From positions 20,104,144 through 20,168,143 of the forward strand of contig CP099849.1 in the NCBI GenBank assembly GCA_030062745.1: a DNA stretch of 64,000 nucleotides, read 5' to 3'. The DNA is from Capitulum mitella. Lineage: Eukaryota > Arthropoda > Thecostraca > Pollicipedomorpha > Pollicipedidae. Shown one piece after another: positions 17,060 through 63,945 of the stretch (the stretch's first letter is position 1; each line of letters opens with the position of its first letter). Below the pieces are notes generated by a model, which worked only from the letters and a program-made list of their open reading frames with translations, was not told where the DNA came from and ran no database searches. The translations under genes and the position numbers were made by a program.

Positions 17060-17153
17060 ATGGAGAACAAGTTTCCAACCCAGCGATGGCAAAGAAAGGC
17101 TTTGGAGCAGGGTGTCCAGAAGCTGAGTGTGCCAAAAGACAGCAACTCATCAG
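17060..17153 (+). CDS. Cdc20: Candidate N-terminal Cdc20 exon (RWQRK box)
   Basis: The frame reads [10 protein letters not shown], matching the basic box near the Cdc20 N terminus. The exon ends at CAG|GTCAGA with one spare base, which completes the codon at the next acceptor (17792), so phase agrees. Codons here are AT-rich, unlike later exons. ATG 17060 has a good context but would drop the usual upstream N-terminal peptide. Alternatively the exon begins after the AG at 17083 and the start lies further upstream. Confidence 0.5.
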
Positions 17154-20100
17154 GTCAGAATGATTATTATGCTTACATGGAATGCCAAATGGCAACAGCT
17201 CACAGCAGTTCACGGACATCTCTTTCCTTGCTTAAATCACCTATTCTGCTGGCCATTCTGACCATGCTCAACCTTATCTTTTCCATCTGATCTAACTCAT
17301 AGCCAGTTAACTATACCACTATATTTTTTGAGACAAATGAAACATATTTTCACCTTTGCATTCATGGCAAATTTTCACACATCTGAAATGAGGACTCTAT
17401 GTCAATATTGGCAAGACTTCACAACATGTGGATTGTTTATGAAAGACATGCAATGTCTATTGTGTTGCATCTGTCCATCTAAAGCTTTATTTTAACCTCC
17501 TCGGCCGTTCCTAACATGGCATTTACTGGTCCAGCTGCCTTTAATATGGTCTGAAACTCTGAGTTGCTGATGTCCTAATGTCAGTATAGGATGGGGTGTG
17601 AACCTCTCCAACCTGTTGCTGATTCTGCATGCTGTCACTCAGGATGCTGCCTGGACCTCTCCAACTTGAATGTCTGGTGCTTCTACAGTGTATGACCTGA
17701 ACCTCTCCAGCCTGTCAATGACTATGTGCTGCCCTGGCAGCGCGCGGTCTGAACCTCTCCAGCCTGTCACTGACTGTGTGTTCCCCTGCAGTGCACGGTC
17801 TGAACCTGTCCAGCCTGTCGCTGAACACGCCCGTGCTGTCGGCCGGCTCGACCAAGTCGTCTCCAGGCCGCACGTGCCGGACGCCGGGCAAGCGGAGTCC
17901 GTGCCGGAGCGCCGGCACCCCGGGCCACTCGACCGTGGACGGCTCGCTGACGCTGCGCCCCGGCGGACGCACGCCCACGCGCGGCCTCCCCAAAACGCCT
18001 AACGGCGGCGACAGGTGGGCCCGCCGCGGCGCAATGGGGGACGGCGGATGTGCAGGAGAGGTGGGCCGGAATGGGCTTTGGTGGAGGTTGTTGGGGACGG
18101 CATGCGAGGCGCAACCGAAAATCAATATCTGTACAAAAGCGCTACCAAAGATCGATGTGAAAAGTCAAGGGTGAAAACTTACCAGTCTGAGCGGGGAAGA
18201 TGCTTCCTCACTTCTTTGGCAACAAAGAACATTTAATACGTCGTCTGCTCTCGTGACTTTTCTGTTACGAGCTCTCGAGTGGTTACGACCTGCGTCTTCT
18301 CTCGCTCCATCCGACTGCAGTAGCCTGTTTCATCTAGGTCTGGAAACGAAACAATCCTGATGGACTATCGAACGTGCCGTTTTCAGGGTGTAAAAACAAC
18401 AGCAATAACGTGCGGAGCAGCAGTGGTTGCTCCGCACCTGGTAGCTCATGCCGCAGTTCTGCACCGGCTGTGACGAAACATCACATGTGCTGCCATCTCT
18501 CCCAGCAGCAGGAACTACCGGTTCCCTGCTTTGCTCTGTAGTGGCGCTAGGCTGCACGTTCGTCCTCTCCGAATGCCGTCCGCTTGCCCGGCCGATGCCC
18601 CGACATTGTCCCATCTGTATGTTTCTGTATTTATTTTTTGTATATTTCCACAGGTTTATCCCGTGCCGCGGCACCACAGATATGGAGAACAGCTACCACT
18701 CGCTGATGCGCGCCGGCGGCGGCAGCAGCGCCGACACGACGGCCAGCGACGGTAGCGGCGCGCCGGAGGAGGCGGCGCCGGCCGGGCCGCCCTCTGAGGA
18801 CCAGCAGCTGATGGCCGAGACGCTCAACAACGGCGTGCCGCGCGACACGCGCATCCTCTCGTTCCGCGCCAAGGCGCCGCAGCCGGCCGACAGTAAGGCG
18901 TCCGGAGATCGGAGGGGACGGGGAGACGGTGTCGTTCTGATGTTTCTTTGTGTGCCGGTGACGTAGCCCGGCAGTGCTAATTGTGCGGATTTACGCCCGA
19001 TGTTTTTTGTGGTGCATGGCTACCGGCGTCGTATCGGACCTGTTCGATCTATCTTTTACTGGTTTCAGTCAGCTTGCACCTCAGTAATGCTTGCATCTTA
19101 AGTACCCTCTGTGATTCCTATGAATGCTAAGCTAGATACGTTCAACTCGTGCGCCTAAACCAGTAGCTAGCTCCACTGCCAACGGCGCGGGAACAGAGTA
19201 GCCAGCTGCTGTGCTGGTACCGCAGACTGCCATCCTGCCGGCAGGCCAAGCCAGCAGTCAACACGTGCTGTCTCCAGTCTGTACTGTACTGACCTTCCCC
19301 TGCTTGCAAGCTGCGCCGGTAGTCGGCACTTGCTATCTTCAGTCCATGCTGTACTGACCTTCCCCTGGTTGCAGGCTACGCCAACAGTCTGCGCGTGCTG
19401 TACAGCGCCAGCCGCTCGAACGCGCCGCGCGCGCCGTCCACGCGCTACATCCCGTCGGTGCCGGAGAAGGTGCTGGACGCGCCGGATCTACTGGACGACT
19501 ACTACCTGCACCTGCTGGACTGGAGCGCCACCAACCAGCTGGCTGTGGCGCTGGGCTCGGCCGTCTACGTGTGGAACGCCTCTGACGGCACGATCGCCAG
19601 CCTGACGCAGATGGACTCCCAGGAGGACTACATCTGCTCACTGGCCTGGGTCAAGGAGGGTGAGTAGCCGGCGGTGGGGGGGGGGGGTCTGCCTGGCTGT
19701 CCGCTTCCACCGCCGCTGCCGCATACCGTGGAAGCGGGACAGCAGCCGGGTTTTTGGTACGCTAAAGTGCCTTGAATGGTCTGTGCCTGCTGCTGTATCC
19801 GAAATCAGGCCGTGGTGTATTAGATGTCATTGAGCCTAGCTCGGCTGATCGTAGCCTTTGACCCTGATACTGGTCCGGCTTTAGGTAATACCTGTCGTCA
19901 TATGGTTCCCTGTCCGCGCCTCCCACTCCGTCCGTGTCCGTCAGGCTCTGCTGGCGGCCGGTGACATTACTGGTGTTGTGTGACTCGCTGTTAGTTTCCA
20001 TCCGGTCTCTCCGCCAGGCGCTGTGCTGGCGGTGGGTGACAGTACGGGTGCCGTCCAGCTGTGGGATGTGGCCCGCCAAAAGAGGCTGAGGGTCATGACC

Positions 20101-23100
20101 GGGCACGATGCACGCGTCTCCACCCTCTCCTGGAACAGCCACCTCGTCTCCAGGTGAGCTGTTGTTCTGTGTATTCACAGTTTCCTGGAGTAGCCACCTC
20201 TTCTCGTCTCATGTTTTAGTCGTCTCCGAGAACAGCGTCCTGTCTCTCACATCTGGTTGTGAGCTGGAGAAGTCCTTGCCTGTGTCGTGAATTCAACGCG
20301 CGCTGTCGTGATGTGACTGAAAGCCATCTGGCATGGGTTCTCTTCTGATATTTACTAGCCCCGGATGTCACGAAAGACTTCTGGAGTGTCTGTGTGTCAT
20401 GCCAGTTTTATTTGTCGTTCTGTCGTGCTGGCGTGGGAATGACGTGCCACCAGCGTTAGAAAAACTGTGGAACACTAAAAAAATTATTCTCCAAGGAAAA
20501 TTTTGTGCTCTAAAATGGTCATTTGCTCCCCCAAAAGACATGGGTGTTCCTACCCAACCAGAGTTTGAAGTTGCCCAGCGTCCCTCTCCGGTTGATGGTT
20601 TACCATCCATACTCAGCTGTTGAAGTACACTCTGAACTTACGGCCAGCCACTTCCCCCCCCCCTGGCCAACGACTGTTGACCCAGGAAACTGGTTGCCCC
20701 CCAAAACGGAGCCAGTGGATCCGCCCCTGGTGGCCGCATATGTTTGCAGAGCACCTAGTTAGTCCATGTTTCCCACATATACGCATGGCATTTTATACTC
20801 CAAAAGAGAATTTGTACTCCAACACAAGGAAGAAAAACCAGGTTTCCAACACTGCGTGCCACTGATGCCAAAATAACGAACAGAATTTCCTGTTCCGTCA
20901 TGAAATGTACCCGTTATAAGACGTATTTAGCACGAAGGGGTTCTGCAGGTGATGGATTGTCCGATGCGACCTGACCCCGGTCATGCCCGCTGTGACCTGA
21001 CCCTGGCCGTGCCCACTATGGCCTGACCTCGGTTATGCCCTCTGTGATCTGGCTTCGGCCGTGGCCACTGTGACCTGACCCCGGCTGTGCCCACTGTGAC
21101 CTGACCTCGGCCGTGCCCGCTGTGACCTGACCTCGGCCGTGCCCACTGTGACCTGACCTGGGCCGTGCCCACTGTGACCTGACCCTGGCCGCGGCCGCTG
21201 TAACCTTACCCAGGCCGTGGCCACCGTAACCTGACCCAGGCCGACCTCGCCGCAGCGGCTCCCGGAGCGGCGTCATCCACCACCACGACGTGCGCATACC
21301 CAACCATCACGTGGGCACGCTGGCCGGCCACGTGCAGGAGGTGTGCGGCCTGCGCTGGTCGGAAGAGGGCCGCCTGCTGGCCTCCGGCGGCAACGACAAC
21401 CAGCTGCTGGTCTGGGACGCCGCCTCCGGCACGGGTACGTGGACGCTGGCCTGTGCTTGGTCGGCCTGTGTCACGTGGCGGCCGTGCTGTGATTTGTTGG
21501 CCACGCTCCTAGCTGATGTCGATTGCTTCTGTTCAAGCGAATCGGGTGCTTCCGCTGAATTAACTTGCTCTGATTACTGTTGTAAAGCCCTTCTTCCAAG
21601 AGAATGCCGTAGTCCTACTTACTCTTTGTAGAAGCCGGTCTTTAGCAGCCTTGTGGGAAGCGTGCGTCACCGCCAACCGGAAAGGATCCGTCGGTCTCAG
21701 CAATGACCCACAGTCACTGGCTCTCTCTTGCTGGTTGATGAGCGGACGATAACCCGTCCTCTGCCGCGTTGCCTGGCTCACCGGCTCCGGCCGGCTCCGG
21801 CAGGTGATTCGGCGGAGCCGCTGCACACGCTGACGCACCACCAGGCGGCCGTGAAGGCGGTCTCCTGGTGTCCGTGGAGCCCGCACCTGCTGGCGTCGGG
21901 CGGCGGCACGGCCGACCGCAGCATCCGCTTCTGGAACGCCTCCACCGGCCAGCTGCTGAACACGACCACCACCAACTCACAGGTGAGCGCGCCACCTCCA
22001 CCGGCCAGCTGCTCAACACGACCACCACCAACTCACAGGTGAACGCGCCGCCGCCGCCGGCCAGCTGATCAACACGACCACCACCACCAACTCACAGGTG
22101 AGCGCGCCGCCGCCACCGGCCAGCTGGTGAACACGACCACCACCAACTCACAGGTGAGCGCGCCATCTCCACCGGCCAGCTGCTCAACACGACCACCACC
22201 AACTCACAGGTGAGCGCCACCTCCACCGGTCATCTGCTCAACACGACCACCACCAACTCACAGGTGAGCGCGCCGCCTCCACCGTCCAGCTGCTGAACAC
22301 GACCACCACCACCAACTCACAGGTGAGCGCGCCGCCTCCACCGGCCAACTGATCAAGTCGCAGTGAACGCACCACCGCTGATTCACATGGGCGCTGAGCA
22401 CCACTAACTTACATATGGATGACAGTAAATGGAACAAAAAGGTCAGCTGGTTTCACAGTGGAGATGCTTTTAGGAGTACTACGTCGACCAAAAAGAAGTA
22501 TCTGTGCTCTCGCCACCTGATCCGACGACTGTTATGGCAGAGCCCCTGCCGTCCCAGCGGGTGTTCCTGGTAGTCTGGTGCTCCGACTGTCCTGTGTGCG
22601 CCGATGACGGGGTTCGTGACGTACATGGTCGGTCGGCAGGTGTGCTCCCTGGTCTGGTCCAGCGAGTACAAGGAGATCATGTCCGGCCACGGCTTCAGCT
22701 ACAACCAGCTGACCATCTGGAAGTACCCGCAGATGACCAAGGTGGTGGATCTCACAGGTATGGCGGTCCCACGTGAGCCCATGTGGTTTACAACTGGCTC
22801 GATCGGCTCGTGAAGAGGGGCAGCTTAGTATTTGGACGAGGGCGTTCCTGGTACTGTCAGTCTGAGTACGCAAGTTCCCATCAAATTCATCGTATCATGT
22901 CATCCGCAAAGATTCATGGGACGAGTGATGTGTTTGGTTCTAGAGCTGTGCCTTACCACTGGGAGGGGTCACACGCCTTGTATGCCTGAGTTGCTCTGTG
23001 TTCCAGGCTCCACGAACACTGCGTATTTGAGCGGGCCCAGATCACCACTGTTCTATTTTTCCATTTTCTATTTTTCTGTTCATCTGGCGAATATCGGGCA

Positions 23101-23828
23101 CTCGAACTGCCCTGTATCTCAGGTCTCAGATACCATATCATGGAGTTGGCTGGTGGTGTTCCTGAGAGTAAGAGTCCGGATGTTGCAGCCAGCGCTGCGT
23201 TTCAGGCCCAGTCACGGGTTGGCTCGGTCTGTTGACTGGCTTTGTGTTTCATACCACGAACCCTAGGTCATGAAGTTGACCCAGTGTTTCAGGTTACGAG
23301 TCCCAGTTGCTGGAGTTGCCCCTGAGTTTCAGGTCGCTTGTCCCGCGTGCTGGGGCTGTCCTTGTGTTTCAGGTCACTGATCCCGGCTGCTGGGGCTGCC
23401 CTTGTGTTTCAGGTCGCTATTGCCGGTTGCTTGGGCTGCCCTTGTGTTTCAGGCCACTGGTCCCGGGTGCTGGGGCTGTCCTTGTGTTTCAGGTCACTGG
23501 TCCCGGGTGCTGGTAGTGCCCGCGTTTCAGGTCGCTAGTCCCGGGTGCTGGCAATGCCCCTTGTTTTAGGTCACGAGTCCCCGCTGCTGGTGCTGCCCCT
23601 ATGTGTCAGGTCACGAGTCACGGGTGCTGGCATTGCCCCTGTGTTTCAGGTCACGAGTCCCGGGTGCTGGAGCTGACCGTGTCTCCGGACGGCTCGACGG
23701 TGGCCAGCGCCGCCGCCGACGAGACCATCCGGTTGTGGAAGTGCTGGCAGACGGACAAGGTGAAGAAGGCCAAGTCCTCGACCAGCAAGGCGGGCCCCAG
23801 CACGATAATGCGGGCCGGTATTCGATGA
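17060..23828 (+). CDS. Cdc20: Cdc20 / fizzy, APC/C activator
   Basis: Mitotic co-activator that recruits substrates to the anaphase-promoting complex and is held by the spindle checkpoint. Exons by phase and splice consensus: 17060?-17153, 17792-18014, 18654-18892, 19375-19659, 20018-20153, 21256-21434, 21804-21982, 22640-22757, 23650-23828. The C-box DRFIP is split across the second intron. [10 protein letters not shown] matches the MAD2-binding motif. The seven WD40 blades follow (ILDAP-like [13 protein letters not shown], then [44 protein letters not shown]). The protein ends in the Ile-Arg tail that docks on APC/C. IHHHDVR and the C terminus favour Cdc20 over Cdh1/fizzy-related. Exons 2-9 give about 512 residues (human 499). 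The N-terminal exon is uncertain. Most introns carry duplicated splice junctions. Confidence 0.93.
17596..17820 (+). repeat. ~50-bp tandem copies of Cdc20 exon 2 acceptor
   Basis: The exon start GGTCTGAACCTGTCCAGCCT is preceded in the intron by four degenerate copies (around 17600, 17653, 17699 and 17751), spaced 46-53 bp. The nearest copy also retains an acceptor-like CTGGCAG before the exon-like part. Confidence 0.75.
19235..19400 (+). repeat. ~65-bp tandem copies of Cdc20 exon 4 acceptor
   Basis: The real boundary TTGCAG|GCTACGCCAACAG at 19374/19375 has copies about 65 and 130 bp upstream (TTGCAAGCTGCGCCGGTAG and GGCAGGCCAAGCCAGCAG). In the nearer copy the acceptor AG/G has become AAG. 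Confidence 0.7.
19930..20060 (+). repeat. 73-bp duplication of Cdc20 exon 5 acceptor
   Basis: CGTCAG|GCTCTGCTGGCGG at 19944 is a copy of the true boundary CGCCAG|GCGCTGTGCTGGCGG at 20017/20018, including about 30 bases of exon-like sequence. Confidence 0.65.
20126..20214 (+). repeat. 60-bp duplication of Cdc20 exon 5 donor end
   Basis: The last coding bases (CTCCTGGAACAGCCACCTCG...) recur 60 bp downstream inside the intron as TTCCTGGAGTAGCCACCTC. The copy has lost a consensus GT donor. Confidence 0.6.
20950..21245 (+). repeat. 26-bp minisatellite in Cdc20 intron 5
   Basis: About eleven copies of a 26-bp unit based on TGTGACCTGACCTCGGCCGT run up to the acceptor of the next exon at 21255. Several central copies are exactly 26 bp apart (for example 21069 and 21095). 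Confidence 0.8.
21955..22350 (+). repeat. ~56-bp tandem copies of Cdc20 exon 7 donor
   Basis: The true exon end ACCAACTCACAG|GTGAGC at 21982/21983 is followed by six more copies of exon end plus donor at 54-60 bp spacing (around 22034, 22093, 22149, 22205, 22259 and 22319). Nearly all keep CACAG|GTGAGC, so seven consensus donors lie in a row. Confidence 0.9.
23270..23689 (+). repeat. 40-bp tandem copies of Cdc20 last-exon acceptor
   Basis: The true boundary GTGTTTCAG|GTCACGAGTC at 23649/23650 is the last of about ten units spaced 40 bp apart (exactly 40 at 23364, 23404, 23444 and 23484). Each unit carries a polypyrimidine-like stretch, CAG, and a copy of the first exon bases. Confidence 0.9.
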
Positions 23829-24209
23829 GAAGGCCCGCTGCTTCTGACTGCCGGCCTGGACGGGCCGCGGGCGGCCGCGTCCGGCTGCCGTCGAGAGTCC
23901 GCCTCTCATCCGAACAGGCGACGAATTATCGCGCCCGCCGTGTTCCGCCGCGGGGATGCGCCCTTGTGACGAGGACGCCGCCCGGCGGCCGTGTCGTCCT
24001 GTACAGACGGCGGCTGGGGCAGTTCTGTCCGTGCTGCTGTCCGTGCTGCTGTTTTATGCCTGCGTCGCGCGACGCCCGCGACGTCCTGACACTGTTCTTC
24101 CGAAAAATTTTGAGATGGCGAGCTTGTATAGCGGCCTGCTCCGAGCTGCGAATCGACGCGCTCTGGAGGCCGCCGGCCTGTGTATGTAACTGATCGTGTA
24201 AGATGTGCA

Positions 24210-24215
24210 AATAAA
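24210..24215 (+). terminator. Cdc20 polyadenylation signal
   Basis: AATAAA lies 382 bases after the Cdc20 stop codon, in a sensible 3' UTR position. Confidence 0.6.
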
Positions 24216-25571
24216 GATGGATCGAGTAGGCATGTGCCGGTCACTGATTTAGAGGCCTAGCCTTCTCTTCGGCTCTTCTTTTGTAGGAGTCGACATGAAA
24301 TGGGCGAGGCAATGATAAGTGGCCATCCTCGCAGCTGACGACGAAAACATATTACATTCAATCCCGTGGAATAAATCACCAATATCTGGAAGTGAATGGA
24401 TGCACTCATCATCCTGTCAGCAAGCGTACCGCCCGGAAAGCAATCGAGAGGCAACACCTGTGCCCCTTGAACTAGCGAAAATTTAGCATTAACCCTACGG
24501 CGTTGCATGGAAATGGCTCGACAAGAAGCCGGTACTCCCGTGCCGGAACACGTTCCATCGCTGCTGTTCAACCGTAGCGCGGTGAAGCAAGAACATTTCT
24601 GGCAGTCAGCATGGCCAGCTGGCGCCGACGCTGCCGTCCGGGCAGATCGGACCACGAAGACGTTCTGGGCAGTGACGGGCCCGGGGTTCGGAAGGGTGGC
24701 GGCTGGTTTGACTCTAACCAGGGTTCAGGGCTGCACCACGGTTCACGGCAGTCGCCGCCATGCGCCTCTCTCTCAGAGGGGTGGCGTGGTCTGGTCTCAC
24801 GCCTGACCGGAGACAGGACGGAAGCGGTGTTCGGACGTGGCGGGGTCAGGGAGAGGCTCCCGCCCTGACACTCCGGACGTGCCAGTGCAGGCTGAGATGT
24901 GGCCAGACCGGCCCTGTCCACAGCTCTGCCGAAACCTGCAGAGGCCGACCTGACTGATTCACGCGGAATCCATTCCCGACAGGCCACGTGCTGTTGGTCC
25001 GTGCGGCCAAGTTAGGGTTCTATCGACCAGCAAATTGTGGGATGATGGCGATCGGTCATTCAAACTACAAACAATGCGGTTCGCCATCTGATCTACAACA
25101 ATTTTCCCACGTCATAATCAGCTCGAAGAATAAATGGTGAACATGTCCGACCCACGAACTGTGATTAGAAGCGCATATATTTCACTTCATTTTGTCGCCT
25201 ATCGATTGTACAAAACACGAAGACGCATTAACTACGCCTAGTCCCAAACAATAACGCTCGCACTGTTAAAAAGTAAAACGATACCCTCAAAACCGACTTA
25301 TGTTTGCCCCCGAGTCGGAGTTACTCCAAACGACAGCGGGGCACGATTCAGACGAGACCACAATCGGTTCGATGGAAAGCTGCTGCATGTTCAATACAAA
25401 ACGCGAAGGGAAATAAATACCTCTAGCTTCCCTTCGTCGCACTCGCCGGCGTCCGGCACAAAAACGAACGCTCGGCAGAGGAGAGAACAACTAATAACGA
25501 TGACAGAGTGTAGTGGTGCGTGTGGATGGGAGACGGGCGCACGCGCGCGCTGATGATGATGATGACGGCGC
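24216..25571. other. Convergent intergenic region, probable Rsf1 3' UTR
   Basis: Lies between the Cdc20 polyadenylation signal and the Rsf1 stop codon. Frames of 80-140 codons occur but have no family resemblance. I did not find a canonical AATAAA on the minus strand, so the Rsf1 3' end is undefined. Confidence 0.4.
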
Positions 25572-26554
25572 TCAGTCGTTCTGCGCCTGGCTGGTGAAGT
25601 ACGACACCAGGCCGCCGAACTCCCGGCTGCCCTCGGCCTCGGCCGGCGCCGGCTGGCTGACCGGCGGCTGCGGCTGCGACTGCGGCTGCGGCTGCGGCAC
25701 GGGCGGCTCGGCCGGCCGGGGCGCGTAGTGCGGCGGCGGCGGCGGGCCCGGCCCGTACCGCATGCCGTACACGGTCCGCCACGGCTGGTGCGGACTCGGC
25801 GCCGGCCCGCCGGGCATGGTGGCCGCCGGCCGCAGGCCCGGGTGGTACGGCTGGCCCGGGTAGAAGTGCGGCGGCGGCGGGCCGGCGGCGGCCGTCGCGT
25901 ACGGGTGGTGGCCGGGCGCCAGCGGCGGCGGCCGGCCCGGCACGCTGCTCGGCAGGCCAGGGTGCGGGTGGAACGGCTGCGCCAGGCTGGTCGGCTGGCC
26001 CGGCGCGGGACCGCCCGGGTAGCGCGGCGGCGGCCGCACCAGCATGTGGCCGCCGGCCATGCTCATGGGAAGGCCGCGGCCGCCGGCGGCGCCCGGCCCG
26101 ACCGGCTGCGGCGGCGGCGGGCCCGACACGCGCATCGGCGGCAGAGACAGGCCGGCCGGCGGCTGCTGCAGCGGCGGCGGCTGCAGCGGCGGCGGTTGCG
26201 GCGACGACGCCGGACTGGGCGAGCGCTGCAGGCCCTGCAGCACGCGGTGGTGCGCCGGCGGCTGCGGCCCGGCCGGCGCCACGGCCGCCTTCTGAGGCTC
26301 CTCGACCAGTTCGGGCGGCGGCGGCTCAGCCTGAACCACCTCGGCGACCGGCTCCGGCGGCTGGGCGGGGGGAGCTGCCACCTCCGGCGCGGCGGCTGGC
26401 GGCGCCACGGGTGGCGGCGAGGCGGCCGCTGCCGGCTCGGCCACGGCCGGCTCCTTGGCAGGCGTCTTGCTCTTCTTCGGTGGAATCTTGTTTGCGTCCT
26501 CGCCGCTGTCTCTTTCCTCTTCTTCTTCCATTGCCTCCTCGTCCCCTTCTTTTT
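25572..26554 (-). CDS. Rsf1: Rsf1 terminal exon: proline-rich tail
   Basis: The exon opens after TTCCGCAG with acidic residues, then a long Pro/Ala/Gly-rich low-complexity stretch, and ends [16 protein letters not shown] before the stop. From memory, a similar short GLVSYF-type C terminus occurs in arthropod Rsf1 proteins; an alignment would settle it. The Arg-rich frame on the opposite strand is a shadow. Confidence 0.75.
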
Positions 26555-29500
26555 CTGCGGAAGATGTTCAGTTTGCAAGGAAATCGCAAAACGGACTTTA
26601 CGGTTACTGCCATTTCATTTAACATCCATCGTGAGCGATAACCCACATTTCCCTTTCGAAAACGGATTCATTCATGGAATGCGCCACGAATTCATATTTT
26701 ACAGGCCATAGCTCCCAGACTTCGTAAATACTTCCAGCTACTGGCCTTCTAGCCAAGTATATGCGGCGTCCTGCAGTGAGGCGGACACACAGAGCTCGGC
26801 AACTCACCGGGCGGGTCGTCCGACTCGCTCTTCTCGTCCGGCGGCGGCTTGAACTCCTCCTCACTCTCGGAGGAGCTGCGCTTGTTGCGCCGGCCGAAGC
26901 TCATCGGCTCGATCGGCCGCAGCTGCACGGAACGGCGGCGGCCAGCGTCAGTGCGCGTACGGGATCCGAGGCCTGCCCCCCCCCCCCCACCACTCCACCG
27001 ACGCAGGGCCGCCCGTACTCAGCGCACACGTCTGAACTACAAAACCGTCGCTGGAGCCCACGTATACGAGAAGGGAAGCATGTTCCATGTTGTTTACGGC
27101 CACGTGACCACCTGCATCCTTTTTTCTTACATACCATCAAAATCCATGACGTCTACCTTCTTTAGAAACCACGCCCATATAAACATACGCCCCGTGCTAT
27201 CAACCACAACGCACCTGCCTCCTCCTACCCCACCATACACCGTTCGACTGTCCACAGTTCACCAACGTGCGACCCACGCCCCTGCCCAACTCACCGTATC
27301 ACTGTCCGACTCCGACTCAAGGATGGCGGCGTAGTTGGTCTTTTTGCCGCGCGTGCGTCGCGCCAGCGGCTCGACCTCGGCCTCCGGCTCCGGCTGCGAG
27401 TACTTGATGCGGCGGCGCGGCTTCTCGGCGGGCGGGTCGTCAGAGGAGGGTCGCTTCTTGGCGCGCGCCTTGCCGCCGCTCTTTTTGCGCGCCTTGGCGG
27501 CCGGCTTCTTGCCGCCCGAGCGGGCCGGCGGCTTCTTCCTGTCCGGCAGAGTGTGGTGTCATGGAGGGCTGAGGCGGTGGCTCAGCGTGCGACGGTCGGC
27601 AGCCGCCAGGCAGGGATTCCGTACCTTGCGAGTGTACAAGCAGCTGCACTCGCCAGAATACAAGCAGGCAACACAATGACAGCCTAATCGCACACACGAC
27701 AGTGCGAGCTATTTACGTTACACGTTATACAGCACAAGTTACAAACGCAGCAAAAACAAACAAAAACAAACAAAAACAAACATTCGAAGTGTGCACGGTG
27801 CAGGCACACGTAATCAGTAATTTCCTAGGGGGGGGGGGCAAATGCCATTTTTGTCACATGCCGACCGTATTCATGCGAAATCGCTCAATATCTCGTGAAG
27901 AGCGCTTGGCTTGGGGGCAATGACCCCTGTGCCCCTCCCCCAGCTACGTCCCTGCTACGGTGATCCGCACACGTGGCACGACTAACCGAAAATTCGCGGC
28001 ACCACCCTTATGTAACACATCCAGCCCGCAGTCAACAAACATGTGCGGCGACCGGCTTACTTTTTCTTTTTGCGTCCCCAGGTGTCATCCGACTCATCGG
28101 AGTCGTCGCCGGAGACGACGAAGTCGCGCATGGGCCGTGGCCTCTTCCTGCCGCGCGCCGTGCCCCACTCCTCGTCACTGCTCTCGTCCGAGACGTACCG
28201 CTGCCGTCCCCTGGAGACAGACCACCGGCAGTCAGCAGTCAGCAAACAGCGGCCTCCCGAGACACAAACATCGGAAGCTCCACAACAACCACCAGTCACG
28301 GACGGTCACGACGTCAAGAACGAACACATCGAACAAGGTGTACGCATCAGTAACGACAAGTGTCCATCCAACCGATCGCTTTAACGGATATAAGGGCAAG
28401 GAATCGGTCATCGCATCGTGCTGTCAACAAACCTTCCCTGGCCAACCTCTATGTAAATCCGCAATAAAGCCAACCCGAGGTCTGTTTCCGCTGTCCACCG
28501 CCGGCGCGGATCCCCGGCCCGCAGCGGCGGCAGCAGTCGCCCAGTCTCACCTGGAGCGGGCCGAGCGTCTGGTGGGCTCGCGGGCCGGCCGGCGACGGCC
28601 TCGGCGCGTCTCCAGCTCGCTCTCGGCCGACAGCTCGTCCGGGTTGAACTCGTCGTCGTCCTCCAGCTCGTCCTCGCTCGTCGCCTTGAAGCTCGCGTCC
28701 GCCTCGTCGTCGTCATCGTCGCCGTCGTCGTCCAGGTCGTTGATGCGCCGGCGCCGCTTCTTGGCCGGCGGCGGCGGCGCCACCTCGTCGTCCGAGCCGT
28801 CCGGACTGGGCGGCGGCCGCTGGCGCCGCAGCGGCGGCGGCGGCGGCCGCACCATCGGCGTCGTCACCGGCAGCTGCGGCGGCGGGAGCGGAGTCGGGGT
28901 CGTCGGCGGCGGCGGCGGCGGGCTCGGCGGCCGCCGGCTCCTTCTCGTCCTCGGCCTGCGTGATGTTCTCCATGGACTTGCCCCGGCCGGCGTTGCCCGC
29001 GCCGCGCACGTACTCCAGCTCGTCCTGAGGATGCCGCGGTCGTCACAGTTCAGACGTGACCACCAGCGGCGACGGACTGGCACCGGACGGCCGTGTCGGT
29101 TCAACAGCGGTGAGGCCTCCCGTTTGAAACATGTTTCTGATGGACCCAGACGCTATCTTTTCGCGCGTGTTGCCGCAAGCTGGGTTAAACGGTAAGATGA
29201 TTGTTATGGCTAGCCAGACCCAATGACCTGTTCATCGACCATGCCAAGTTTGGACCGCACACCCTGGCTATGGGCCACGCTACGGGAATATGTCACCATA
29301 TGTCCCGCCTGCTGCCCCGGAAGGCACACCTAAAACTCACTACCATCCATTCTTGCACTCCTGCACTACACCAGCCACGCCTCGTTCAGTCAATGACGTC
29401 AGACCCTCCTGGGATCGGTGTCTCGGTCGCAAGCATCATTCCAACCGGTCACTCAACACAATCTGTACCAAATCAGATTACTCTAGTGACAGCCTGGCCT

Positions 29501-32500
29501 TCACAGGCCGCAAACAGCCGCTGCCGGGACCGCCAACTGACCCGTATCGCGTCGTCGATCATCTCGTCGAACTGCTTGACCTTCTGGCTGATCTCGGCGG
29601 CCGGCCGGCGCGCGCGCAGCGTGTAGATGGGCTCGTCCGACTCGTCCGAGACGTCGCTCGCCTCGTCCGACTCGTCCGAGTCCTCGTCGGACGAGCCGTC
29701 GTCCGAGCTGCTGCCGGCCTCGCCCAGCGAGGCGTCCGACACCTCCTCGTCCTCCTGGCCGCCGGGGAGGGGACAGTCACGTCGCCCGTCCCAATGGCAA
29801 TGCCACGGATCAATACCGAGACATCGCACTGTACAAACTCCCAGACCATCCACAAAACGGCTACAAGCGCACAGGCAGCTGACCATCTTCTCCGCCCAGT
29901 GCGATTCCGCCACAACACAGGAAACAACAAACCCTACATTATTGTACCAGCTTACATCCCACAATCGGTGCCACCATCAATGCCGCATTTGCCCATTCGA
30001 ATGCACAACACCCTGCATTTTTCCGTCCCGACCCCCGCGGCTCCGAACACCCCCGCCGTCCACGGAGCGTCCCCCGCAAACGGCCAGGCAACAGCAGCAG
30101 CCCTCCCGCCCTCCGGCCCGGAGTCGGCGTCGCCACTCACGTGGTCGGAGCGCTTGGGCCGGCGCGGCCGACTCGGCAGCACGTTGCCCATGCTGATGTT
30201 GACGTACTCGAGCCGCTGTTTGCGCAGCAGGTCGTTCTCGCGCTGTTTCAGCGCCAGGTCGAACTCGTCCAGGCGCAGCGTCAGAGCCGTGACAAGGCGG
30301 CCCTGCCGGACGGGGCGGGCAGGCCGGGTCAGTCCAATGAGGTCCGCCCGGGCACAGACCACCGAAAACACAGTGTACGTGTTACATGCACCTAATAAAG
30401 CTATTTCAAGTCACGCAAAGATGACCTTTTTGAACGTATCCCTCGGCCCCTGGATTTCTCCCACGAACTGCGACTGTTTGACAGGCAAGTTCGACGTGGC
30501 GAATTAATGTCAACAGCAGTTTTATACAGCCCACTCCAGGCTGAACGTGCGGGCCCACGCCCGGCAAGGAGACGTGGCGAACGCGGCGTTGCATCATACA
30601 TCACGAAAAAGATGATGAACGTTGATGAAAGGCCGACTGATAAGCGGGTTCAGAGGTGACCCGAGTCAACGACATCGCAATGTCTGCCTACGTGTCCCTC
30701 TTGTTCACGGATAATGAGAACAGTAACTGCACCATCAGCATTACAGCCAGTGTAGCTTCCCGCTCTAATCAGGAACTGACACGGAACGAACTCGAACGGC
30801 GGAGACGCCGCCCAAATAGATAAACAGCGGAACGACGCTACTCCCAGAATCCTGGACAACCGTTTATGCTGAGTGACCTGATCACAATAGGCCACCCTAC
30901 GATAAGCTCCCGCCCTTGACGGCCGAACCATCGGCGACAATACATTTCCACCACTTTGCTTCTCACCGGCCTTTAAGTTAGCCAAGCATACTAAGTTTCC
31001 GTGGATTTAATCATGATTTCGTAACTGGCCTAGCATGTCGGCAGTGTTCTGCCCACCACTTCCCAGACCGGCCACTCAGGCCGGACGCAACTGCGCATCA
31101 CTCCAACCCCAGAGAGGCCTGGCTTCCGGTCTCCAACACGCCAGCCCGGCTCTCTGGCGGTGCCCGGCGGCCGGCCGCCGCCGAGTCCGCCCGCCCGCTC
31201 CACGGCGCCGCCCCTGACATCAGCTCCGGCCGGCAGGCGGCGGCCGCCGACCTTGGCCGGCGCGAGGTGGCCTCGGAGCCGCCGCCTGAGAGCCGGCCAC
31301 AGTCGGCCGCCGTCGCGTCACAGAAGGGCACCGCCGGCCGCCGACGCACCACGGCAGCCATGCTGTGGGTGGTGCTGTGGCTAGCCTTCCTCGTCGCCTG
31401 GCTGCTCTACAGCAACAGGCGGCCGAAAAATGCCCCGCCCGGTAAGTGAATTTCACTGACAGCCGGCGCCACTGCACCAGGCGCCGGCCGCCACTGGGCT
31501 ATGTGAATGTGCCTGGTGGTCTCGGACTTGGACTCTTACAAAGTCTCATGTTATATCCTTTTCCTGTTATATGTCATTTACCTCCATTTATGAGTAACAT
31601 GCGCGAGATACCGTACTCCGATTGCCTAACTGTAGGAGCCCATTCATGCAATGCTTCCTGGGATTCCTTCCATCGGGCCCGGAAGACCGGCGTCTACACT
31701 ATTAACGCCACTCCTTTTGCACCGTATACTCCCTTCAAACACAAGCCACTGTGACACACACCCCTACCCGCCCATGCGGTGTGCAGACACTCTCCCGAGC
31801 TTCCAACCGTCTCCGCAGGCCCGGCAAACATCCCGCTGGTGGGTCGCGCCCTCTCGCTCGACCAGAGACACCCGGAGAACACGTTCCTGCGCTGGCGGCG
31901 CCAGTACGGCGACATCTACAGCGTGCGGCTGGGCCCGTCCGACATGGTGGTGCTGTCGGACCCCGCGCTCATTCGCGAGGCATTCAGTCGGCCGGCCTCG
32001 ACCGGTCGGCCCACGGGGCCCGTCATCGAGCGGCTGGGCGTGGAGCGCGGCCTCATCTTCTCCAAGGGCGAGCAGTGGCACGTGACGCGCCGCTTCGCGC
32101 TCTTCCACCTGCGCAACTTCGGCATGGGCAAGGCGCGCCTGGAGGAGGTGATTCGCCAGCAGGCGGACGACTTCTTGACGACAGTGGTGGGGGCCAGTGA
32201 GGGCCAGCCGCTCACCATCGATAAGAGCCTCGACATTGCCGTAGTCAACATCATCTGGGGCATCGTCAGCGGCGAGACGCTCGACATCACCGACGAGCGC
32301 GTGCTCAACATCTTCAACAAGAACAAGGAGTTGAGCGAGAAGGCGAAGCGCCTCAACCTGTTTGTTTTCGTGCCGTTCCTGCTGAAGGTGCTGCCGTCAT
32401 GGTTGGTCGGCCTGGACGAGATCATTGAGCTGTTCCACACGGTGCGGAAGGAGCTGATCACGCCGGTCATCGCCGAGCATCGGCGCCGCTTCGACCCGAC

Positions 32501-35500
32501 GGCCGAGCCCGCCGACTTCATCGAGTGCTTCCTGCTGGAGCAGCAGCGCGACTCGCAACGCTTCACCGACGACGGCCTGGTCCAGTGCATCGGCGACATG
32601 TTCAACGCCGGCAGCGACACGACGGCCACCACGCTGCGCTGGGCCTTCTGCTTCCTGTGCGCGCGGCCCGACGCCCAGCGGCGCGTGCAGGACGAGATCG
32701 ACCGGGTGGTGGGCGGCAGCCGGCCGCCGTCGCTGGCCGACCGGCCCAGCATGCCGTACACGGACGCCTTCCTGATGGAGACGCAGCGGCTGGGCGACGT
32801 GGCGCCGATGGGCGTGCTGCACGCCGCCGAGCAGGAGTTCGAGGTGGGCGGCTACACGGTGCCGCGCGGCGCCCACATCACCGCCCTGCTCACGGCCGTG
32901 CTCAAGGACCCGCGCAACTTCCCCGAGCCGGAGCGTTTCCGGCCCGAGCGCTTCCTGGACGAGCTCGGCAAGCTGAAGCCCAGCCGGGCGCTGATGCCGT
33001 TCTCGGTCGGCAAGCGCTCCTGCCTGGGTGAGGCCATGGCGCGCTCCGAGCTCTTCCTCTTCCTGACGAGCGCGCTGCAGCGGTTCTCCTTCCGCTTCCC
33101 GGCCGGCTTTGAGCACGACCTGTCGCGCGAGGAGCGCGCCGGTCTCTCGTCCCCGGCACCGTTCAAAGTGGTGCCCACGCGCCGCTGAGCGGGCCGAGGC
33201 CGGCCGACAGCAGGTGGGCACGGCCGGCAGTACCGGCGAGATGGACCGATGCAGCCACAGACTGAACGCCTCGGCAGCGTCAGTGAAGATGCATGGACGT
33301 GAGCGCCGCCAGGAAACATGCCAAAGTTAGGATTTCCAAGGTCCTCAGCGAGATCACTGTGACGCTTTGAGTGTGTAAGTTACTGAAATGACCAAGGGAT
33401 AAATGATTCTGATGCGAATCGAGCCAAGGAGGGGCGACTTGAATCGAAGGGACGAGCAGACGTATGGTAATTCATATGCATGCATTCCGTGTCTACCACC
33501 GAAGTAAATAAAACGTGAATAAGAAAGATGATTCTTTCCAGCTGTCATTTCCCGCTTACGGCCCATATAACTTAAAAACAAAGAGAGCGCACACAAAGAG
33601 CAGCTCGAATACCGAAGAACGTCCGACAAAACAAACGCTGAAAACAAAACCTGCATGCATCCATAACAAAATCCGCAGTAATTCTACGCCATCATCCACG
33701 ACTTTGGACACGCCCAACCACGTGGTCCATCCCACCGCGATAGGCCACAGTCAGTTATCTTGAGTGGGACAGTAGCGCGCCGCTGTTGGCTGCCTGCCAT
33801 CCGCTGTCTACCGCTCCCAGCGCCGAGTCACAGTGACCTCGGCAGGCCGGGCAACGCTCTCAATAGCGTGCGCTGTGCACGGCGTACAAACACGGGCGGC
33901 GAGTGCAACAAGATGGCGGCGACAGACGCGGCAACAACATGAATCAACCACGCCCGTGTAGGGCGGAGGTTCATGCATTCCTCTACGTTTCCCGAGAATA
34001 ACTTTTTAACGGTTTGTTTGAGCCACCTGAAACTTGGTGCACCCTCTGGGGGGCCATTTTCGCACGTTATGGTTGCAAAAATGTTTCCTCTACGTTACCG
34101 TGGTAGCAAGCTATGGCGTCATGACGAGGGCCAGTCCAGCGGTTTCACGCCCAAACACCGTTGCCAACAGCTGTTGGCAACGGTCTCATTTTTGTGTCAC
34201 TGCAAAACGGAATGAGTGCATAAATACAACAAAAAATATATAAATCCACTTAAAATGTTATGTTCTATGAGGCTACATTTGGTAGGCTTACGCTCAATGT
34301 CGGGATAATCGAGCGTGTAAACTAAGATCATGGAAACGGCGAGAAACGCGCTACTTCTTTATCTCTGAAAATCCCATGCAAAATAGGCATCGCAAAAACA
34401 ATCTGTGTATTTGGACTGCCTGAGCTGTGCGGAATCACTGTATATAAATTTGGTGCAAATTCCCTTTTATTACATGAAAAAAGGGCGGAACTTGACTTGA
34501 TTTTTGACCAAGACTTCATTTTTGTCTCGACTGGCGGTGCGGCGCCGGCCGCAGGGTATTGAGCCCACAAAGCCAAGACATGCCAAACATTAGCTCTTGT
34601 GGTAGATATCAACTAAAAAATATTTTAACACATCCAAGTCACAATTTCTTGATAATCCAAGGCCATTCTACCTCAATGGCTTAAGATGACCTGGGATGAT
34701 CTAAGATGGCCTAAGATGTACTTTAGGCGTCATTCGTCAACAGTGCTGATTAGTTCAGATGCTCCAATGGACTTCAGAATCCATTATTACCCATAAAAAC
34801 TACTTTTGCAGCTATGAGAATGTATTTGGGCCGACGACGCCACTGCACAAGGATTCACCTTGCATGGCCTGGATCGGAATCCATGGATGAAATGCAACCA
34901 TCTGAAGTGAAGATGGACTCATAATTGATTGGCGAGCATTATCAAATCTGTTTCGCTTCATTACCATTCATTCTTTGACATCCACTTGTGCTTAAATTAA
35001 AAGCGTATCACTTTCTGCTAATTCTTGGTACTTGACCGGACCTGGAATGTCGCCCAGTGACCTAGAACCTTAACCTGCGCCCGACTGGCAGTCGGCGCAA
35101 TGCACGCCCAACGGGGGTTATATATTCGAGATGGCTGATAAGCCCTCTCGAACTTGCGAAAGATTTGTCGCACGAAAAAAATGAACATACCATTGGAAAG
35201 CTCATGACACGTAAAGCTTGAAACTCGTGTCATCTTTTACATTTGGGGAGTATCTAAGCCATGTATGCCCTACATGTGTCTGGCCATAGCTGACTACATG
35301 GACCCCAGAAATGCCCTGTCCCTCAAAGGCTGTTAGTGATGAAGACCAGGTAAAGGTACTGATAGATATATGTTCACGGACACCGACACACATCTAGTTT
35401 CCCTAATTTGTCTAACATTTGCGCGGGGATGTTGAGTTAAAGATACTGCGATTTCTGCGCCAAAGGGCGGCAGGCGACGGCGCCAAAGGCAAGGTGAAAT

Positions 35501-38500
35501 TAACGGGCACCAATTTCAGCGTCCTCTTTTTTGGTGATGGGCTTCGTGTCATGGTTTTCAATGTTCATTCTTTGAAAAACAATCGTAGTTACCAAAATAA
35601 GCAATTAGCGGAGCTTTATTCGCGCAAGCCTGTTTATTATCGAACTGGACAATTTCTTCAACCTAACTCTTTTACCCAATGGTAAAAGAAAAATCAAACG
35701 AACATTAGTGCGTATTCGGCTGCATTTTGAGCTATTCGCTGTTAACAAGTTCACTTGAAAGAAGAAAAAAGGAAAAAAACGAAGAAAAAGAAAAAGAAGT
35801 TCCAGTGGACAAGTGAACAAGTACCAGCTATACGCACTGACGTTCTCGGGAGAAGCTTCACTGGTGTTCTCGGTAATCGTGTGGTCAAAGGGTCGATAGC
35901 ACCAGCCATGCACATGCATGTGATCTCATAGTAAACAACTGTACTCACGTGTTCAGAGGACGAACCGTCCCAGCTGTGCAAACGAACGTGGTCTCGGGGT
36001 AGACACCAACTGTACTCACGTGCTCACAGAGCACCAGCTGTGCTCATCCACGTGACATCGGGGTAGACCACGCCAGATGCACTCACGTGCCCCAGGGCGA
36101 ACAGTCTTAGCTGTGCATACGCACGTGGTCTCGGGGTAGACAGCACTAACTGTACTCACGCGTTCACAGAGCCGAGAGGACCAGCTGTGCACACGCATGT
36201 GGTCACGAGGTTGTCTACCTCGTGACAGCTGCACTCACGTGTTCGCAGGGCGGACAGTACCAGCTGCCCTCCGGAATGCTCAAGAGCGGCGGACGCACGC
36301 AGTTGGTGTGCCAGCCGCTGTTGCAGCCGTCGCAGAGCAGGATGTACTCGGGGTGGTCGCCATGGCCGCACTTCCTGCACAGGTCCTCCTCGTCCAGCTC
36401 CTCCTCGGCCTCGTCCTCGTCATCGTCCTCGTCCGAGGGCTGGGCGGCGGCGTCCGGCGCGGCGGCCGGCCCGGACCCGCCGCGGTCTGCCGAGGAGATC
36501 CGGCGATATCAGCAGCGGCCGGCCATCCGACGGCGGCAGCGGGCCCAGAATTAGGCCGCAGCAGTGACCGCTGAGATCAGTCTACCAACGCAGACTGCCG
36601 CAGTGCAAAACAGCATCACGTTCACCAGGAAAGACTGCTTCGTTACTGCAATTTCTGAGGTTTCGGGCACGTCAATCACTAGACCACTGACAGCCAGGTC
36701 TTAAATTCTCGCTCTTGAGACCCTCTCCCAAAACACTCCACCAAAGTCCACCTCAATGAGACCAAAATGGAACCACCGAGCGGCCCCAACCCTAGCGAAA
36801 ACCAACACTCACCTGAGCAAATACACGCGGAGCGCGTACGGACCGGCGCGGCCACTGACCTGCCACGCGCGCCTTTTTCCGGGCGGAGCGGGCCGTGCGG
36901 GCGTGCTGGACGGGCACGTACTCCTGGTCGTTGTCCGACTCGGGCGAGAACTCGTGGTCCGAGCGGAAGATGTCCTCGTCGCGGGCCTCGTGGTGGGCGA
37001 ACAGCTCCATCTCGTCGTCGTCCTCCTCCGAGCTGGAGCTGGTGACGAGAAGGCGGAGTCAGACGCGGCGCCGGCACACAACAGCCCACTCCGATATCCA
37101 GGCGGCGTCATTTTCACGGCTGAATCGCGCCGTAATGCCGAATGGAACCGAACGGCAAGGCATGATAGATACACCGAAACGAGACCAACGTGGCAGTACC
37201 AGAAACGTAATGTGCATACCGGTGTTGATAAAACGGTTAAGCTTTCTCATGATCTCACGACATAACGTTCCCCCTTTCCCGATGTATAGACGCAACCACA
37301 AATTCGGAAGAACCAGCACAGATCAGTTATTTTCCACCACTGGCCTCCACATGGACGCACATATCTGCAGCAAGACGGCCTGGCCTCTGAACACTTTACG
37401 GACAGAAAGGTACAATTATCGATCTAGTGCATAAACGACATTAATGTTTTCGTTAAACGCGAATAATGTATCCCCATTCCTTACTCACGAATCCAACTGA
37501 TACCACATGCCAACTAACGATTGCAATCTAATCAAAGATCAGTGGATACACGCCAGTCTCAGCAGCTAATGACTTCCCTGCGACGACTAAAAACACCACC
37601 ACTGTCAGTGGTACGACAACGCAGCGCCATCGCTCACCTGGTTCCTGATGAAGACTGCCAAGGGTCGTTTCCAGTCTTCTTCTTTTTCTTCTTGCGCTTC
37701 TTCTTCTTGGCCTTCTCCTCTTCATGCTCCTTTTGGGCCTTCTTCTGGCGGCGCTTCTTCTTCTTGTCCTTGCGCTGGGCGCGCCGGTGTTCGCGCTCCT
37801 GCTGGCGCAGTTTGCGCATCTCCGACTGCTCCTTGAGCACACGCAGCCGCTCCTCCTCGTCCACCCTGCGCTGCTCTTCCTCCTTTTCGCGCAGCTTGGC
37901 CACACGGGACGAGCGCCGCCGGCCGGCGCCTCCCTCTGCGGGCACGGACGGCGCCGGTCACCGCCGGGCACGGACGGCGCCGACGGTACTCACAGCCGGC
38001 GGCAGGACGGCGCCCGCACGGGGAGAGCGGACGCAGCGGGAGCGCGCCGTCCGGCTCGGTCCGCGTCTGGCAGCCAACGTGCCAAGCAGCGCCCACAGAC
38101 GCGACGCCAGGGCACGATCACCCCGCACCGTGGGCCGTCACGACCAAGGTCAATGGCAAGGGCACCGGCCTGCACGTTCCACGGCACGGGTATTACGTCG
38201 CAGACTGGAAGACGAATCGAAAGTGCTAAGCTTGCGACGCAGACCAGGTGGGTCATTCGTTTACGTACGATCATGCACCAAGGAACCGTGGCATGCAGGT
38301 TTTCTTTTTGACGGGACTATAAGCATTCAGGATCATATATCAAAGGACAGCACCAAAGTACAATAACAACGCCGGAAAACGGTTTTTCGTTCTTGTTGTA
38401 GACACTAAATTTATCACCGGAACAAGCAATTTTACGAGCCAGATAAAAAAGTCGGTACACACCAATGCAAAAAACACAGAAAATCAACTCCGAATGCGTA

Positions 38501-62900: not shown

Positions 62901-63945
62901 ACGTAACTAGGTACGAATAATACACAAAACTGTGCGTAACACCTGTTATGGGTGATTTTCTAGCCGCAGCCGTGCACTGTTCACATGAATCCCGCCGGCG
63001 GACGCCCGATGTTCGGGTGAAGCCTCAGCCATCGACCGCTTTGGCACGCCCATTCAAAACGCTATCGCGGCATTTCAACATCTGTTGATTCAACGCCGAC
63101 ATCGACAAACATGATAATCAGTACACACGCTGAAGGGGACAGCCGACGGAAATGCCATTAGTGCCTCGCGCCGAAACAAAATCGCATTTGTCACGAAAGC
63201 GACTTCGTTCTGTTTTCCACGCTCGTCGCCCTGGCCATGTCAAACTCGGTCATTCTCGAACCCGGCGGCGAGGCCCTGTAGGCCGCCATCTTTGGCGTGC
63301 CGCCGGCCACTAACCGCCGGCCGCACGCCTCCACCACCCACCGACAATGAAGTGGTGCTGGTAGTCCAGGAAGATGGCGCGCTTCAGGCCGGCCAGCTTG
63401 GTCTTGGCCTCGTTGCTCGAGCCGTCGTAGGAACGCTCGCAGACCTTGACGCACGTCTGAGACAGCTTCCCGACCGGCTCGAACACGAACTGCCCGGGCG
63501 GCACCGAGGTCACACGGCGGTGGATCGGGCGGTGCCGGCAGACGGCAGCGTGCGCCACTGAGGCGTCCGACACTGACAATGAAGACCTATCCCACCTGCT
63601 TTAGAACGCCCATTTTGGCTGAAGGCTGTTACACACACAGCCATGTTGGTTCCTCTAAAATGTTAGCTTATTCTAAAGGAGTAAAACTGTTAAGCAACAG
63701 GAGTAAATTAACATTACAAACTAGAACATAGCAAAACAAAAACAAAGCAAGTGCGTTTCTACCACACTGATGTCAGTACCTCCAAACGAATAAAAACAAA
63801 TCATGCCACCAAAATACGACCATTCTAAGACCGTTCTTTACAAACCTCGTAGGGCGACGACTGGATACGTTCCCCGAATACCACTTGTCCCAGGTTCTCA
63901 ACAGGAGGTGGTGCTGACTTCTCCTTGGGTTCACAGAAATCAAAA
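50952..63945 (-). CDS. TM9SF2: TM9SF2 (nonaspanin), 5' end outside window
   Basis: Nine-pass Golgi/endosomal membrane protein. Thirteen exons in coding order: 63945-63846, 63489-63342, 62836-62715, 62384-62273, 61918-61758, 61465-61289, 59972-59828, 59060-58883, 57473-57299, 54937-54801, 53542-53431, 51664-51492, 51019-50952. All phases agree. The luminal part runs FDFCEP...[12 protein letters not shown] and DNMPVT. The membrane part runs [73 protein letters not shown] and ends VKVD. The terminal KVD fits the family's KxD/E COPI-binding signal for Golgi retention. ENLGQV and RYNQ...EEFGWK favour TM9SF2 over TM9SF4. About 602 codons are here (human protein 663 residues); the signal peptide and first residues lie beyond 64,000. 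One +1 frameshift at about 51577. Confidence 0.93.
51492..51664 (-). CDS. TM9SF2: TM9SF2 penultimate exon with +1 frameshift
   Basis: The exon reads [20 protein letters not shown]...HYFAT, then meets an in-frame TAA. Skipping one T gives [20 protein letters not shown], which continues the family sequence without loss. Total length minus one fits the phases of both neighbours. The extra base sits at about 51577 in GCCACC-T-AAGCTG (minus strand). Confidence 0.85.
54319..54642 (+). CDS. Hypothetical 107-codon frame in a TM9SF2 intron
   Basis: A frame with balanced composition ([16 protein letters not shown]..., ending KLVARYTYE) on the strand opposite TM9SF2, inside its intron between exons ending 54801 and starting 53542. 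I do not recognise it. Codon use is less GC-biased than the neighbouring genes. It may be a transposon remnant or chance. Confidence 0.2.
   Translation: MASRQSRVAARMAELRSRPLRRVGRALIRGTWTSQELAQRAVVARAEIHTWRFVRRRDNTFRDLIIDQQQHIYQTQMEAVFEREHGETPTPLTRDTIPKLVARYTYE
59095..59335. repeat. Degenerate minisatellite in TM9SF2 intron
   Basis: Variants of GGTCACACGGG and GGGCACACGGATCA recur every 15-30 bp just upstream (in gene orientation) of the exon starting at 59060. Unlike the Cdc20 cases, no clear copy of the splice junction is visible. Confidence 0.5.

Follow-up and report, generated by a model that had tools for sequence, protein, structure and literature searches.

A 64,000-nucleotide stretch of the genome of the barnacle Capitulum mitella (assembly GCA_030062745.1, contig CP099849.1, positions 20,104,144 to 20,168,143, forward strand; hereafter the window) was analysed for copies of exon ends within the adjoining introns. 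Serial copies carrying an exon end together with its donor or acceptor were found in introns of CDC20 and of a second gene, which we take to be RSF1. Such junction copying is not confined to the window, and 17 of the 278 junctions sampled overall (about 6%) were positive at z ≥ 5, compared with 4 of 1363 controls. The arrays probably reflect duplication of the minisatellite type, commoner at intron ends and tolerated as the splice site nearest the exon is still used.

Copies of exon ends in introns of the window

Gene models of the window (34 introns and 68 junctions over CDC20, RSF1, TM9SF2 and a cytochrome P450 gene) were built with splice sites set by eye, guided by human proteins, and were then checked by script. 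For each junction, a 30-nt anchor taken from the exon only was compared with the 400 nt of its intron lying closest to it, and the score was converted to z using 500 dinucleotide shuffles. The genes and repeats concerned are listed below. Introns are abbreviated as I1, I2 and so on, and arrays detected with Tandem Repeats Finder are marked TRF.

17060..23828, + strand: CDC20, coding exons 1-9, open spliced frame, alignment to 4ggd from residue 98
17595..17819, + strand: CDC20 intron 1 acceptor array, three copies of ~52-bp units that carry polypyrimidine tract, AG and the beginning of exon 2, which truly starts at 17792 (TRF)
19212..19400, + strand: CDC20 intron 3, acceptor and exon 4 start copied twice upstream at a spacing of 65 bp, both copies diverged; exon start at 19375
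19923..20060, + strand: CDC20 intron 4, acceptor and exon 5 start copied once, 73 bp upstream; exon start at 20018
20126..20250, + strand: CDC20 intron 5 donor, end of exon 5 copied once or twice downstream in degenerate form, the junction itself not covered; exon end at 20153
20968..21243, + strand: CDC20 intron 5 array, 26 bp x 10.6, stopping 12 bp short of the exon 6 acceptor and not reaching the exon (TRF)
21937..22394, + strand: CDC20 intron 7 donor array, ~56-bp units, each with 44 nt of the exon 7 end and the donor; exon end at 21982 (TRF)
23110..23682, + strand: CDC20 intron 8 acceptor array, ~40-bp units with TTTCAG and exon 9 start; exon start at 23650 (TRF)
25572..48231, - strand: RSF1-like gene, 14 coding exons, WSD and PHD domains found
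35935..36268, - strand: RSF1 intron 7 donor array, ~70-bp units with the end of exon 7 (PHD finger) and GTGAGT; exon end at 36239 (TRF)
37936..37990, - strand: RSF1 intron 4, small duplication adjoining the exon 5 acceptor, 18/18 nt matching, intron sequence only

The nine coding exons of CDC20 form an uninterrupted frame of 543 amino acids. Within this gene, z was 12.5 for the I7 donor, 11.5 for the I1 acceptor, 9.8 for the I8 acceptor, 7.4 for the I4 acceptor, 7.0 for the I5 donor, 4.7 for the I3 acceptor and 4.0 for the I1 donor; the I7 donor of RSF1 gave 6.0. A z of at least 5 was reached by 6 of the 68 window junctions and by none of 316 exon-internal anchors, and a z of at least 4 by 8 of 68 and 1 of 316, respectively. 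CDC20 supplied 5 positives at z ≥ 5 among its 16 junctions, with the I3 acceptor just below. Scores of 15 or more were obtained by 7 of the 68 anchors on their own introns and by 1 of 1934 pairings of an anchor with an intron other than its own. When 40-nt anchors were compared with entire introns, the top places again went to these six CDC20 junctions (controls 2/140 at z 5), and the RSF1 I7 donor, in its 5.9-kb intron, had a z of 3.4. The I7 array of CDC20 contains six full decoys and two degenerate copies, the I8 array nine copies with three older ones upstream, and the RSF1 I7 donor array four to five copies.

All six blocks of CDC20 in which an initial sequence-only reading had claimed junction copies held, that of I3 being the weakest, as did the block claimed in intron 7 of RSF1. 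The duplication which it placed at exon 5 of RSF1 (37940-37990) is real but is not a junction copy, its match (18/18 nt) being wholly intronic. No exon-end copies were found at the two P450 junctions with the 30-nt anchor test.

By eye, the repeat tracts preceding acceptors in CDC20 (20968-21243) and TM9SF2 (59104-59330) look alike, both being GACCTGACC/CCGTG-rich with CTGAC motifs that resemble branch points. This likeness may be convergence.

Occurrence elsewhere in the genome

Samples outside the window were drawn from eight CCT chaperonin genes, WD40 loci, myosins and one CDC20-like gene that is presumably FZR1 (hereafter FZR1-like). CCT exons, located by Pfam profile search, were linked according to splice score and reading frame, which yielded 42 introns; six pairs separated by large gaps in the profile and one unresolved pair were left out. 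The WD40 sample consisted of 20 loci with 39 predicted introns (four pairs were skipped), and support for these models is weaker; the model of locus L009 misses an exon relative to LIS1. Twenty introns were used from the myosins, with three unresolved cases, two exceeding the length limit, and pairs with profile gaps of more than 16 omitted. The FZR1-like gene, whose separate pieces are 42-57% identical to CDC20, provided four introns.

Among the eight CCT genes, 5 of 84 junctions were positive at z ≥ 5 (controls 2/536), and among the WD40 genes 6 of 78 (controls 2/295), which bears out the claim that unrelated genes carry junction copies. One WD40 locus (L011) supplied one of these six positives and both controls, all of them doubtful. 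Both sides of introns were affected, with 10 donors and 8 acceptors. Among the CCT genes, an acceptor of L031 has 12 copies, 11 of them covering the junction, and a donor of L035 has 13. At L022 a 71-bp unit (60 nt of exon plus the donor) is repeated about 10 times at 98% identity; this locus is a U5-40K homologue, whose exons match U5-40K residues 1-131 across the junction.

The CDC20 I7 and I8 arrays matched only their own place in 477 Mb, in a search that skips very common words and was run with these two arrays only. Unit lengths differ between arrays and are mostly 35-75 bp. Both results agree with the earlier view of a local process and not of one mobile repeat; for the two arrays searched, a mobile repeat was rejected.

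Placement of arrays relative to junctions

Of 115 introns, 30 contain 40 bp or more of tandem arrays (period ≥15). Their placement was tested with 36 arrays, for which base periods replaced higher-order periods after an earlier null result (21 arrays in 76 introns with higher-order periods, 6 crossing a junction vs 4.2 expected, P 0.21). With base periods, 10 of the 36 arrays crossed a junction, compared with 3.1 expected under uniform placement (P 0.0008) and 4.5 when matched for guanine-cytosine (GC) content (P 0.01), which is higher in exons than in introns. Sixteen of the 36 crossed or lay within 15 bp of a junction vs 5.0 expected (P 9e-6; GC-matched 6.8, P 4e-4). Of the 28 arrays located outside the window, 7 crossed a junction vs 2.3 (P 0.007; GC-matched 3.3, P 0.04) and 12 crossed or lay within 15 bp vs 3.8 (P 1e-4; GC-matched 5.2, P 0.0026). 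L011_4818, where a predicted exon lies inside an array, was left out of this test and kept in the WD40 count of 6/78; when it was included, 11 of 37 arrays crossed vs 3.3 expected (P 1.3e-4). A comparison of junction overlap with chance had been proposed from the sequence-only reading, and the excess that it anticipated was present with 36 arrays but not significant in the first, 21-array version.

The further claim of specific anchoring at junctions found no support in a scan of 30-mers. A nearby copy was present for 7.8% of 30-mers at exon ends (18/230), 8.3% at intron edges (19/228) and 9-12% further in (9.3-12.1%); copy density is thus flat across the intron edge. Over the 115 introns, array coverage was 1.3% at 60-90 nt inside exons, ~5% at the junction, 10-13% at 60-800 nt into introns and 1.6% beyond 800 nt, with no peak at the junction. 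Under uniform placement, multi-unit arrays whose overlap with the exon is limited to one unit are expected to thin out near the edge, and as this was not seen there is an excess at the edge. The proportion of exon 30-mers copied into the intron fell with depth, from 7.4% at -30 (17/229) to 3.9% at -45, 1.3% at -60 and 0.4% at -75, as expected of 35-75 bp units that ignore the junction. Copies within exons were seen at z 5 for 16 of 395 exon 30-mers, 14 of these from RSF1; without RSF1 the count was 2/214. Eight TRF arrays end 4-23 bp before an exon and do not reach it. Strict junction anchoring is not shown by these data.

Direction of copying and age of the introns

The alignment of CDC20 of the window with its human counterpart (E 1.9e-146) begins at residue 98, extends to the end and runs across the copied exon ends of I3, I4, I5, I7 and I8. 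The exons are therefore the source of the copies and came first there, so that at these five junctions the direction from exon to intron is shown, as judged from the protein alignment. An array-free intron of the FZR1-like gene occupies the exact position and phase of CDC20 intron 7, and another lies one nucleotide off CDC20 intron 4. CDC20 intron 7 thus appears to predate its array, unless it was gained twice, and on this comparison the birth of CDC20 intron 7 by array formation is unsupported.

Introns with arrays are longer than others (median 1098 vs 402), partly by construction. Similarly, exon copies were found at 2 of 96 junctions in introns shorter than 400 nt and at 13 of 106 in introns longer than 600 nt, to which the arrays themselves add length. 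The sequence-only reading had offered such duplication as an explanation of intron growth; the lengths go in that direction, but the comparison builds in part of the difference.

State of the decoys

GT or AG is kept in 81 of 89 decoys (17 junctions), and 54 of them have a score no more than 1 bit below that of the true site. The decoys of the proposed arrays of splice sites are thus mostly intact, and they are not visibly purged. In alignments made blind to the site (18 junctions), the splice dinucleotide survived in 94 of 104 copies and the identical dinucleotide at other places of the unit in 83 of 111. Conservation of the splice core exceeded the unit average in 14 of 18 arrays; in L025 and L030 it fell below that of the remaining unit. 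Within arrays, ranks did not differ from chance (10 arrays of at least four copies, combined P 0.45). Strong selection on the decoys is not shown by these ranks. Of the 16 CDC20 decoys examined (6 in I7 and 10 in I8), none is predicted to keep the C-terminus of the protein if used; a working gene would thus have to pass over most of them.

Identity to the exon copy had no consistent trend with distance (nine arrays, rho -0.68 to 0.41, mean -0.09). A conveyor-belt origin, with new copies made from the exon and older ones pushed inwards, was not supported for lack of a consistent gradient, the values for L031 (-0.68) and L009 (-0.42) notwithstanding. The copies are identical neither to the exon unit nor among themselves, with 0.37-1.0 of a 46-nt seed matched. 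The middle copies of CDC20 I8 have common variants that the exon lacks, which fits internal amplification.

Probable origin and tolerance of the arrays

Under the explanation that we favour, short tandem duplications (mostly of 35-75 bp units) are frequent in and around introns of this genome, two to three times more so near their ends than in the middle. Such duplications would presumably arise by slippage or unequal exchange, and a unit spanning a junction by chance would add the exon end and its donor or acceptor to the intron. The original, exon-nearest site would still be used, probably via exon definition (exons being recognised as short units), leaving message and protein unchanged and the duplication close to neutral. 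Extra copies could then multiply and diverge within the intron as minisatellites do, reaching up to about 12 decoys with nothing to remove them. We infer that the outer site is used because copies are tolerated at donors and acceptors alike and because splicing at a decoy would be damaging. A stronger version, that about 1 in 16 sampled junctions stands beside near-perfect tandem decoys kept under a strict shortest-exon rule which makes copies nearly neutral, is offered as a tentative proposal that we are inclined to doubt.

Several results weigh against duplication by chance with use of the outer site. CDC20 was picked as striking and is an outlier, with 5 of 16 junctions at z ≥ 5 compared with 12 of 262 elsewhere. 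No positives were found among 24 TM9SF2 junctions at z ≥ 4, 40 myosin junctions at z ≥ 5 (controls 0/216) or the eight junctions of the FZR1-like gene at z ≥ 5. The copied exon end of CDC20 I1 lies outside the human CDC20 alignment, so the direction of copying is shown for the other five junctions. The edge excess is not fully due to GC (P 0.0026), and some step must therefore favour intron ends. Unit lengths divisible by three were counted in 2 of 11 crossing arrays vs 12 of 26 others (P 0.15; by hand 0/9 vs 8/15), and if this deficit of multiples of three is real, decoys would sometimes be used. Finally, use of the outer site is itself deduced from DNA.

These points have to be set against the alternatives. 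If, in line with the sequence-only reading, something at exon-intron borders such as co-transcriptional structures or breaks started the duplications, junctions would be true hotspots, and both the number of arrays crossing or within 15 bp (16/36 vs 5.0; outside the window 12/28 vs 3.8) and the 5/16 positives of CDC20 would follow; we regard this as unlikely, since copy density lacks a peak at the junction, part of the excess tracks GC, and the myosins (0/40) and TM9SF2 (0/24) had no positives. It is decidedly improbable that the decoys are functional, recruiting parts of the spliceosome or serving regulated unproductive splicing and kept by selection. The site-blind alignments (94/104 vs 83/111, and a core above the unit mean in 14/18 arrays) speak for such a role; chance-level ranks within arrays (P 0.45), the poorer keeping of the core in L025 and L030, and the array-free state of the FZR1-like intron common to CDC20 intron 7 speak against it.

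The order of events could also have been the reverse, with an older intronic minisatellite into which the exon border later slid. The eight TRF arrays that stop 4-23 bp short of an exon do demonstrate junction-side arrays free of exon copies, but the copied ends align with human CDC20 at 5 of 6 CDC20 junctions, and CDC20 intron 7 shares position and phase with an FZR1-like intron. Sliding of the exon into an array is accordingly disfavoured, and we consider it very unlikely. As for repeats made or inflated in assembly, RSF1 exon 4 and TM9SF2-like exon 12 show what look like small breaks in the frame, so that the assembly may contain some errors. The copies, however, differ from the exon unit and from each other and occur at loci on several contigs, which makes an artefact extremely unlikely. 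Chance duplication with continued use of the outer site remains our preferred reading. If the stronger version with its shortest-exon rule held across the genome, the arrays would amount to splice-competition experiments made by nature in very large number, and array copy number could tune, or add noise to, the splicing of essential genes such as CDC20. To our knowledge, choice among equally good splice sites has mostly been studied with engineered duplications; natural ones, which here number 1 to about 13 copies and affect donors as well as acceptors in essential genes, would serve as tests of splice-site choice. They would also provide a simple route to longer introns that leaves the protein untouched.

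Relation to known systems

In the open-licence literature, outside which most subscription journals lie, single cases and human repeats were found, and no report of the pattern in a barnacle or at such a scale. Serial junction copies as a genome-wide feature thus have no earlier report that we found, whereas single cases and human border repeats are already known. A 1995 paper in Nucleic Acids Research is said, by its title, to describe a minisatellite with multiple splice donor sites in an interferon-induced transcript, and thus to concern a single transcript. Zhuo et al. in 2007 reportedly described, again going by the title, human introns that came from tandem arrays and were tied to alternative splicing. 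The FZR1-like comparison does not suggest that arrays became introns in the case of CDC20 intron 7.

The arrays consist of head-to-tail copies of one short unit (TRF), as do minisatellites of the 10-100 bp class. Introner-like elements are one sequence family in many introns; here I7 and I8 matched only their own places and unit lengths differ. AGGT splice-like sites within the duplicate, as in the Rogers model of intron gain by tandem genomic duplication (PMC3443670), are present in CDC20 I7 (CACAG|GTGAGC) and I8 (TTTCAG|GT), although not in all arrays. The same model (PMC3443670) has the duplication make a new intron, and for CDC20 intron 7 the array-free FZR1-like counterpart indicates otherwise. 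In a potato RdRp gene, a tandem duplication across an intron-exon boundary made a new intron (PMC4974935). Intron end and exon start were duplicated in tandem there too, with branch site, polypyrimidine tract and 3' splice site; that case comprises one duplication in one gene, whereas here the copies are serial, occur in several genes, lie within introns and involve at least one old intron (PMC4974935). Two fission yeast genes have tandem-repeat introns that resemble the adjacent exon and whose units include proto splice sites (PMC3629103). They were read as intron gain from exonic repeats (AGGC), whereas here junctions are copied at both intron ends and at ~6% of those sampled (PMC3629103). 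Human internal tandem repeats are likewise minisatellite-like, overlap exon-intron borders and can alter splicing, with 27 intron modifications on record (PMC2812944). The human repeats are recent segmental duplications, whereas those described here are a background feature of the sampled genes and form long series of intact decoys (PMC2812944).

RSF1 and other features of the window

The other genes and elements of the window are as follows.

4967-6474, - strand: DDE_1 transposase remnant, presumably of pogo/Tigger type
31360-33188, + strand: cytochrome P450 gene, two exons, antisense within RSF1 intron 7
51000..63945, - strand: TM9SF2-like gene (the name is presumed), 13 exons in the window, 3' end incomplete, EMP70 domain

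An Rfam scan of the window gave no matches, and the N-terminal segment of the RSF1-like protein had no match in the PDB. Exon 12 of the TM9SF2-like gene (51500-51600) has an apparent one-base frame break, either a base-level assembly error or a sign of a non-working gene. In exon 4 of RSF1, an 87-bp unit (a multiple of three) is repeated 3.5 times at 38917-39220, and this exon also contains frame breaks. Intron 1 of RSF1 has three identical, young-looking 48-bp copies at 44505-44648, ~1 kb from the nearest junction. The same intron contains, at 47164-47556, a 121-bp inverted repeat (94% complementary) around a telomere-like TAGGT/TTAGG tract of 17.6 units, which looks like a miniature inverted-repeat transposable element with a telomeric core.

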